A stretch of DNA of 40,562 nt from assembly GCA_905339355.1 (NCBI GenBank), contig CAJPFZ010000281.1:1-40562 (forward strand), given 5' to 3'. Both the position numbers and the translations under genes were made by a program. The stretch is from Burkholderiaceae bacterium (GTDB lineage Bacteria; Pseudomonadota; Gammaproteobacteria; Burkholderiales; Burkholderiaceae_C). Shown here in pieces: positions 38,854-40,561 of the stretch. Numbering within the stretch: position 1 is the first letter of the stretch; each line of letters starts with the position of its first letter. The notes under the pieces were generated by a model that made no database searches, was not told the DNA's origin, and saw only the letters and a list, made by a program, of their open reading frames with translations.

Positions 38854-39966
38854 TCAGCCCATCCAGCGCTTGGCCGACCACTCGACGACGGCCGGCAGCG
38901 GCCACCCGCTGCGCCGGTGCTGCCGCAGCGCGCCCGCGTCGTTGCCGTCGAACAGGCTGTCGCGCAGCAGGTTGCTCGCGTCCAGCGCGCGCAAGTCCAG
39001 CGCATGTTCGTCGATGCGCGCCAGCGTGCGCAAGATGTCGTCGCGGATCTTGGTGCGCTGCTTGGTCTTGGGATCGACGATGTCGCCGTCGAGCCCGAAG
39101 CGGCAGGCCTGGAAGCGGTTGAAGGTGTAGACGAGGTAGTCGTCCTCGGCCGGTTCGAAGGGTTTGTCCTCGCGCAGGTAGCGGCACAGGCACTGCAGGT
39201 AGCAGGCGAGCGCGGCCGCCTTGTCCACCGTGAGCGGCGTGTCGCACACCCGCAGCTCGATGGTGCCGAACTCCGGCTTGGGCCGGATGTCCCAGTAGAA
39301 GTCCTTCATCGACTCGACGACGCCGGTGCTGGTCATCTTGTCGAAGTAGTGGCCGAATTCGTCCCAGCCGAGCGCGAAGGGCGCGCGGCCCGACAGCGGG
39401 AAGGCGAACACGGAGTTCAGCCGTGCGGAGTCGAAGCCGGTGTCCACACCCTGCACGAACGGCGACGAGGCCGACAGCGCGATGAAGTGCGGCACGTAGC
39501 GCGACAACGCATGCAGCAGCCACAAGGCGGTGTCACCGTTCTCGCAACCGACGTGCACGTGCTGGCCGAACACGGTGAACTGCTTGGCGAGGTAGCCGTA
39601 GAGCTCGCTGATGTAGTGGAAGCGCTCGGTCGGGTAGATCTGCTGCGCGCTCCAGTGCTGGTAGGGGTGCGTGCCGCCGCCGGCGATGCCGATGTTGAGC
39701 TTGCGCGCGCCGTCCGCGAGCTGCCGGCGCAGGTCGTGCAGCTCGGCCACCAGGGGCCCGTGCTCGCGCTGGATCGAGGTGCCGATCTCGATCATGCTGC
39801 GCGTGATCTCGGGCTTCACGTCCCAGTCGCCGGTGTGCTTGCGCAGCACGCGCAGCAGGTCTTCGGCCTGTGGCGCGAGGTCGAAATCGTGGGTGCTGAC
39901 GAGCTGCAGCTCGAGTTCGACGCCGAGCGTCAAGGGCTCCGAGGGCGTGAAGGCAGCGAGGCTCAT
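38854..39966 (-). CDS. ybdK: GCS2-family carboxylate-amine ligase (YbdK type)
   Basis: A 370-residue member of the YbdK glutamate-cysteine ligase 2 family. It starts [20 protein letters not shown], the family's ATP-grasp-like N-terminal block (GVE-E). Further conserved parts are [34 protein letters not shown], and [20 protein letters not shown] with Glu/Arg metal and substrate ligands. YbdK proteins show weak gamma-glutamyl-cysteine ligase activity; the physiological product is uncertain. The ATG at 39966 overlaps the stop of the 38-codon ORF as ATGA, and GAGGGG lies 5 bases upstream inside that ORF, so translation is coupled. Confidence 0.93.
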
Positions 39967-40079
39967 GACAGCCCCTCGTCTGCGGAATACCGCAGCCGAT
40001 CCCCCCGGGGGATGCGGGCCGGCTTGGGAGCGGCCCGGCGCTCGGCCCGCGAAAGACAGGTTGACACTGGGTGTCTCAT
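39963..40079 (-). CDS. 38-codon ORF coupled to antiporter and ligase genes
   Basis: A 38-residue, Arg/Ala/Pro-rich open frame starting [20 protein letters not shown] and ending DEGLS. Its ATG overlaps the antiporter stop as ATGA (40076-40079), and its stop overlaps the ligase ATG as ATGA (39963-39966). A good GGGAG (40087-40091) lies 7 bases before its ATG. These three features together favour translation. It contains two hairpins and the ligase ribosome-binding site. Whether the peptide has a function, or only couples translation between the neighbours, is unknown. It has no membrane segment or signal. I am fairly sure of the coupling geometry and unsure of the role. Confidence 0.6.
39980..39995. 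other. Hairpin inside the 38-codon ORF
   Basis: CTGCGG (39980-39985) pairs with CCGCAG (39990-39995) around AATA, 14 bases upstream of the ligase start on the minus strand. Confidence 0.5.
39999..40013. other. Palindrome inside the 38-codon ORF
   Basis: ATCCCCC and GGGGGAT form a 15-base palindrome with one central base (39999-40013). With the 39980-39995 hairpin it could make alternative mRNA structures around the ligase ribosome-binding site. Confidence 0.5.
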
Positions 40080-40561
40080 GTCGGTTCTCCCTGCGTTTCG
40101 CACGCCACGTGCTGCAGCGCGACCTGCGTCCACAAGGGGCCCGTCAACTGCATCAGTGTCGTGGCAAGCAGCAGCGACTGCAGCACCATCGCGTCCATGC
40201 CCGTGAGCTGCGAGGTCCAGTCGAAGGTGTCGGCGGCCAGCAGAACGGCGAGGCTGCTCATCGGCTGCAGCGCCATCGTCAGCGCTGCGGCCTGGCGCCA
40301 GCCGAGTCCGCTGGGCCGTGCCAGCAGCGCGACCGCGAGACCCTTGCCGGCGGCGCGCGCGACGATGATGGCGAGCACCCACGGCCACAGCGTCGCGAGG
40401 TGATCAAGCGTCAGCAGCAGCCCGAGGCAGACGAACAGCACGACGACGAGGATGGCGCCGGCCGAGCCGAGCTGCGGCTCCACCGTGAGGCCGTGCCGCA
40501 TGCGCGCACGCGCCACCACGCCGGCCACCAGCAGCGCGAGCAGCGGCGACAGCGTCCATTG
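40076..40561 (-). CDS. Cation/proton antiporter, CPA2 type, 5' end outside window
   Basis: The frame is open to the right edge (its first visible residues are [14 protein letters not shown]), so the gene begins beyond the window. The visible 161 residues contain hydrophobic helices ([79 protein letters not shown]), ending in a short tail [22 protein letters not shown] and TGPL resemble the later helices of KefB/NhaS-type CPA2 exchangers. There is no C-terminal TrkA-N domain as in Kef systems. The stop overlaps the 38-codon ORF start as ATGA. Ion specificity cannot be told from this part. Confidence 0.8.

Follow-up and report, generated by a model that had tools for sequence, protein, structure and literature searches.

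The mini-ORF that links an antiporter gene to a GCS2 ligase gene in a Burkholderiaceae bacterium belongs, as comparison with its matches shows, to a family of hairpin-forming repeats dispersed in Burkholderiales genomes. We propose that the repeat is a tolerated, apparently mobile element whose mini-ORF would preserve translational coupling between the genes it separates, working much as the MIRUs of mycobacteria do, and we give this reading a probability of about 0.78. Judging from the sites compared here, what is conserved is a frame rule that holds across insertion sites, and not the 38-codon ORF itself.

The antiporter–GCS2 junction

The original prediction, made for a window of 40,562 nucleotides (the whole stretch of DNA that was analyzed), described a 38-codon ORF with ATGA at both ends and a GGGAG at a spacing of 7 nt. 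The sequence and the list of ORFs confirm this layout exactly: the ORF spans 117 nt of the minus strand (40079->39963), from ATG to TGA. A second ribosome-binding-like sequence, GAGGGG, which that prediction did not include, is located 5 nt 5′ of the ligase ATG. Pfam assigns the upstream neighbor to Na_H_Exchanger (PF00999, E 3.2e-9) and the downstream one to GCS2 (PF04107, E 9.7e-53), and a Pfam search up to E 0.1 with the 38-aa peptide, which contains 8 Arg, returned zero matches. The distance from ATGA to ATGA is 113, that is 2 mod 3, and the frame between them is free of stops. The features, all on the minus strand, are the following:

40076–40561, minus: upstream gene, sodium/hydrogen-exchanger-like antiporter, running off the window (Pfam PF00999)
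40087–40091, minus: GGGAG, ribosome-binding-like, 7 nt 5′ of the mini-ORF ATG, most likely the earlier site of GCS2 (in relative G001, GGAGG stands 7 nt ahead of the lone ATGA)
40076–40079, minus: left ATGA, shared by the antiporter stop and the mini-ORF start (sequence; single ATGA in the empty site)
39963–40079, minus: 38-codon mini-ORF, predicted to couple its neighbors and overlapping each of them by 4 nt (sequence, ORF list)
39967–40075, minus: repeat copy of type II layout, the part enclosed by the two ATGA (own-genome and relative matches; empty site in G001)
40014–40050, minus: head hairpin with the conserved 17-nt loop at 40023–40039 (fold, arm pairing, loop pattern)
39999–40013, minus: middle hairpin, ATCCCCC...GGGGGAT (fold)
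39980–39995, minus: tail hairpin, with compensatory changes among copies (pair retention across distinct sequences)
39972–39977, minus: GAGGGG, ribosome-binding-like, within the repeat (sequence; CGAGGGG in 84/249 distinct copies)
39963–39966, minus: right ATGA, shared by the mini-ORF stop and the GCS2 start (sequence)
38854–39966, minus: downstream gene, GCS2-family ligase (Pfam PF04107)

Two overlaps plus a ribosome-binding site had been considered improbable by chance. The single case is indeed unusual but not decisive, as 20 of 261 co-directional control gene pairs (gaps of 40–230 nt) also have a bridging ORF, and some of these ORFs are other repeats. It is the pattern over many copies, not the single junction, that carries weight against chance.

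Copies and distribution of the repeat

When the entire region was compared with the bacterium's own genome, the small-ORF stretch came up at several other places. Using a 132-nt query, we obtained seven matches with E<=0.001, which correspond to six places including the window, two of the matches being pieces of one copy on contig C598. The same query matched 18 of 60 genomes (own included), every one from the same family, but none of 24 genomes that represent the order's other families. The conserved 17-nt loop was present in 65 of 150 family genomes, again counting our own, with a maximum of 51 copies in one of them (G034); the loop pattern read backwards was found in 0 of the 150. A scan of named genomes yielded at least 119 stretches with the repeat, and among the 80 titles listed from those matches, 69 were Burkholderiales organisms or bins (some genera being ones that we take, from general knowledge, to belong to the order) and 11 were labelled otherwise or unplaced. 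Among the papers listed by our searches of the open-licence literature, no such repeat is named for Burkholderiales. Two layouts can be distinguished: type I, with units of ~60 nt, and type II, of ~80–125 nt, to which the window copy belongs. Junctions of length 59, 62, and 113 recur often.

Among 134 copies in the at least 119 stretches, a home-made gene finder, checked only against the window's genes, placed 71 in sense orientation between co-directional genes, 22 in antisense, 11 between convergent and 3 between divergent genes, and 11 inside genes, with 16 unplaced at contig edges. A larger and less even sample of 285 copies, which over-represents the genomes we fetched from and the copies resembling the window's and which excludes loci L201–L230 (chosen by gene), gave 152 sense, 43 antisense, 22 convergent, 9 divergent, 39 inside called genes, and 20 unplaced. 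One own-genome copy (L002, C150:11661-11780), 91% identical, has ATGA at both ends and a divergent neighbor. It adjoins the 5′ side of a dehydrogenase/epimerase-like gene that is preceded by no gene of the same direction, so this copy seems to have inserted at a start codon and not at a gene overlap. The idea that the peptide might act as a leader finds leader-like placement in this one copy of the genome only.

Hairpin structure

On the window strand the repeat folds better than its shuffles (z −2.4), only 1 in 200 of which did equally well. The head hairpin has variable complementary arms, and a copy's own arms out-pair swapped arms in 199 of 249 copies. Of 70 distinct sequences, 48 keep all six pairs of the tail hairpin, and none does once the pairing is slid by 1 or 2. 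The distance from the left ATGA to the core varies from ~4 to 60 nt, the left ends of the copies are variable, which counts against the proposed reading, and no more than a weak GACA../..TGTC likeness to terminal inverted repeats was noted by eye in the window copy. In another own-genome copy (L005/L007, C598:15624-15747), the middle hairpin contains an extra nested hairpin of ~30 nt.

Hairpins kept by compensatory change, together with a CCCCTCG that lies upstream of CGAGGGG in many copies and is complementary to it, would also suit a regulatory RNA structure that tunes downstream expression through stability, processing, or masking of GAGGGG, with the open frame secondary. We consider this unlikely, given that it leaves the frame rule described below unexplained, that many copies are antisense, convergent, or within genes, and that the window copy has CCCCCGG in place of CCCCTCG. 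Moreover, an Rfam search of window positions 39800–40250 gave no match above the gathering score, the sole match being AS1890 (20.6 bits vs 39).

Filled and empty sites

For the GCS2 junction, 100 genomes were searched, 55 of them matched, and we examined the best 30 loci. In a member of the same genus whose ligase is 90% identical (G001), the two genes share a single ATGA with no insert, and GGAGG is located 7 nt before it. Because of this position, we take the GGGAG of the window most readily as the site from which the ligase was once translated, and because the G001 junction is insert-free with one ATGA only, the extra ATGA arrived with the insert. At the same junction, G106 has a diverged repeat of length 80 that bridges; against the proposed reading, G119 has a related repeat in antisense that does not.

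We also fetched and aligned 19 korA-korB loci. In the own genome (G000), two ATGA enclose a copy of type I. A single ATGA overlap is present in two members of the same genus, G001 and G003, and in several outgroups; the insert is a type II copy in G009 and another hairpin, preceded by GTGA, in G002. These three different inserts (G000, G009, and G002) all bridge, with lengths of 59, 95, and 71, respectively. At tolR-tolA, the own copy bridges (113), as do inserts of other sequence in G009 (119) and G081 (62), and insert-free forms are a 4-nt ATGA overlap in G134 and a 10-nt gap in G001. At fkpB-ispH, the Variovorax sites are filled (L109, L117), and in several of 30 relatives fkpB ends in ...CTATGA; since the ispH starts are uncertain, we left this junction out as proof. 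ATGA at both ends of the insert and one ATGA in the empty site is the pattern of a target-site duplication; a repeat that carries its own ATGA explains the two ATGA equally well. Hairpin repeats of other sequence were also seen at NTGA junctions with a bridging frame at L366 (the korA-korB junction of G002), L160, L198, L280, and L307.

ATGA association and bridging frame

Of 121 sense junctions, we used the 119 with gaps >=20 nt and dropped the 2 with gaps under 20 nt. ATGA is found at the upstream stop in 83 of the 119, compared with 37 of 261 control pairs (38/57 vs 22/179 in a smaller sample). Where NTGA is present on both sides, 70 of 89 sense junctions are 2 mod 3 in length and have the bridging frame, and lengths from 59 to 224 remain 2 mod 3 in most cases. 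In the 74 junctions with a single core (multi-core and one-sided junctions left out), 61 bridge; the core occurs in all three phases and the right-hand phases compensate the left (39% expected). The peptides encoded by the repeat consequently differ by phase, the core being read in three frames, so these comparisons indicate that the frame is kept and the peptide is not.

Not every junction uses one ORF. Among the 103 left-NTGA junctions, the next gene is reached by a single ORF in 69 and by a chain of one to three mini-ORFs in 77, and the 26 chains that miss the next start comprise 10 in-frame fusions, 3 that end near it, 8 that run past, and 5 that are broken. Shuffled interiors reach the next gene in 20% (random length) or 44% (length kept), as against the observed 77/103. 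In 16 tandem arrays with 19 periods, 11 periods are 0 mod 3, 8 are 2 mod 3, and none is 1; over all contexts (n=38) the figures are 23, 10, and 5 for 0, 2, and 1 mod 3, respectively. Tandem arrays are found, for instance, in G002 (C1:579509-580042 and C1:2070485-2070913) and in G003 (C153:18231-18435), one with six units of ~89 nt and the others with units of ~80–90 nt, and they are possible variable-number loci.

Copies in other orientations served as controls. With L201–L230 and L305 onward excluded, ATGA is found at the upstream stop in 7 of 38 antisense and 1 of 22 convergent copies. At left-NTGA junctions the length is 2 mod 3 in 6/21 antisense vs 76/103 sense copies (Fisher 1.9e-4), and with NTGA on both sides in 4/10 vs 70/89 (p 0.015). 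Against our reading, core-free control pairs with NTGA on both sides are also 2 mod 3 in 26 of 43 cases (difference from core junctions, p 0.037). This control is not clean: by eye, ~10 of those 26, and ~5 of the 17 that are not 2 mod 3, contain a diverged relative or some other repeat. The lean may indicate that the rule is wider than the core repeat family, applying to several repeat families, or that something else makes short bridging ORFs common.

As subfamilies share lengths, repeat copies are not independent, and the bridging counts with one member per cluster are 46/59 at 90% identity, 22/31 at 80%, 11/16 at 70%, and, under the strictest clustering, 4/7 at 60%, which is not significant. 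This fading of significance, and the fact that lengths of 59, 62, and 113 are common to many junctions, could reflect an inherited bias in which a few source elements of bridging length multiplied without selection for coupling. Such a bias would hardly account for lengths from 59 to 224 being mostly 2 mod 3, for left and right phases that compensate, for the same frame in a hairpin of other sequence at korA-korB, or for antisense copies without a frame effect, and we regard it as quite improbable. A functional microprotein partnering a neighbor, for which the open frame, the ribosome-binding-like site, and the Arg-rich peptide might argue, is very improbable, and a unique one is ruled out, since the ORF belongs to a dispersed repeat whose copies adjoin unrelated genes and are read in three frames, has no Pfam match, and is missing in G001 despite the same flanking genes.

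The original prediction had offered both this partner role and that of a translational coupler, with conservation of frame and start in relatives as a check. At the window locus such conservation fails, G001 having no ORF, and the partner role is not supported. The coupler is favored indirectly by the 70/89 bridging junctions, the 77/103 chains, and the antisense copies without bias, from which we infer coupling itself.

Proposed mechanism of coupling

As set out in one account, termination–reinitiation requires overlaps or very short gaps, and in E. coli a 38-nt gap cut reinitiation by 80–90% in two gene pairs and wholly in a third (PMC10666635). An insert of 60–120 nt would thus be expected to end the coupling of the two genes, except where ribosomes translate it all the way from stop to start, and a frame bias is predicted from this requirement. 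At the antiporter–GCS2 junction, a GC-rich hairpin-forming repeat would have entered the 4-nt ATGA overlap of the two genes, so that an ATGA now stands on either side of it, and would have brought its own ribosome-binding-like GAGGGG ahead of the second ATGA as well as a stop-free bridging frame. After the antiporter stop, ribosomes would reinitiate at the mini-ORF with the help of GGGAG, the earlier site of the ligase. As they translate the mini-ORF they would open the hairpins, and on terminating at the second ATGA they would begin the ligase. The frame would be kept because an untranslated gap of the insert's size would break termination–reinitiation, and the peptide is probably irrelevant. 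Translation of the mini-ORF and an effect on fitness are, like coupling, what we infer from the patterns among copies.

More tentatively, and with somewhat less than even odds, the rule may extend across Burkholderiales, with several sequence-unrelated hairpin repeat families independently colonizing stop-start overlaps, ending with NTGA on both sides, and persisting mainly when a mini-ORF or chain bridges them. They would then be natural mobile coupling cassettes, with a route that favors NTGA start sites.

Relation to known elements

The Burkholderiales repeat appears, by analogy, to work as MIRUs do, which were reportedly described by Supply et al. in 1997 and which also form tandem arrays, as this repeat does. 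MIRUs are presented in a review as apparently mobile repeats of mycobacteria that insert at start codons and have an internal ORF coupled at −4 nt (PMC12548453), a likeness that concerns this description and not the sequence. Each trait has its counterpart here: a short repeat dispersed in operons (the 71 of 134 sense copies), an ORF or chain whose layout joins it to the downstream gene at −4 nt (69/103 and 77/103), with coupling the putative outcome, and stop-start overlaps that are an empty ATGA in G001 (GCS2) and in G001 and G003 (korA-korB). The Burkholderiales repeat differs in its compensatory hairpins, its three-frame core, and its many antisense and convergent copies.

Other systems are less similar. 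Rickettsia palindromic elements, as reviewed in PMC10969869, are palindromic repeats of ~100–150 bp that keep host reading frames; they share with our repeat a palindromic structure that preserves the frame, but insert inside ORFs as in-frame fusions with a conserved peptide, whereas ours usually forms a separate bridging ORF with no conserved peptide, only 39 of 285 copies being inside called genes, in three frames. REP sequences with RAYT transposases, as outlined in PMC3733652, are likewise many-copy palindromic repeats near gene ends, with a GTAG/CGTC tag by the palindrome. Our repeat is longer; RAYT-type genes (PF01797) occur in 8 of 13 genomes searched and are absent in 5, own genome included, and the core was in none of 12 fetched RAYT loci. 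A RAYT-driven REP is thus not supported, and this search of 13 genomes and 12 loci found no mobilizing enzyme, a point against the proposed reading of the repeat as apparently mobile. Finally, in bicistronic designs, as these are introduced in PMC12548453 and PMC5995908, ribosomes are brought to a gene by a short leader ORF placed before it, and the effects of RNA structure are thereby removed. Those are engineered, and the Burkholderiales repeat would be a natural and repeated case of a short ORF before the next gene.

The coupling reading would account for small ORFs flanked by two ATGA, a class open to being mistaken for genes, and suggests how operons with overlapping genes may take up repeats while keeping coupling. 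It would carry the MIRU principle into another phylum, with a structured element, and the filled and empty sites, in right and wrong frames, offer many natural experiments on how much coupling matters.

Plasmids carry the repeat as well, with matches in 1 record for the window copy and in 2 for the L130 copy. In one of these records, the Variovorax plasmid NZ_LR594669.1, the annotation has phnJ and phnK overlap by 4 nt and makes a diverged copy (L231, 1513 onward) the N-terminus of PhnK. A likely GTG start follows 60 nt further on, and the annotated start of PhnK on this plasmid may be wrong.
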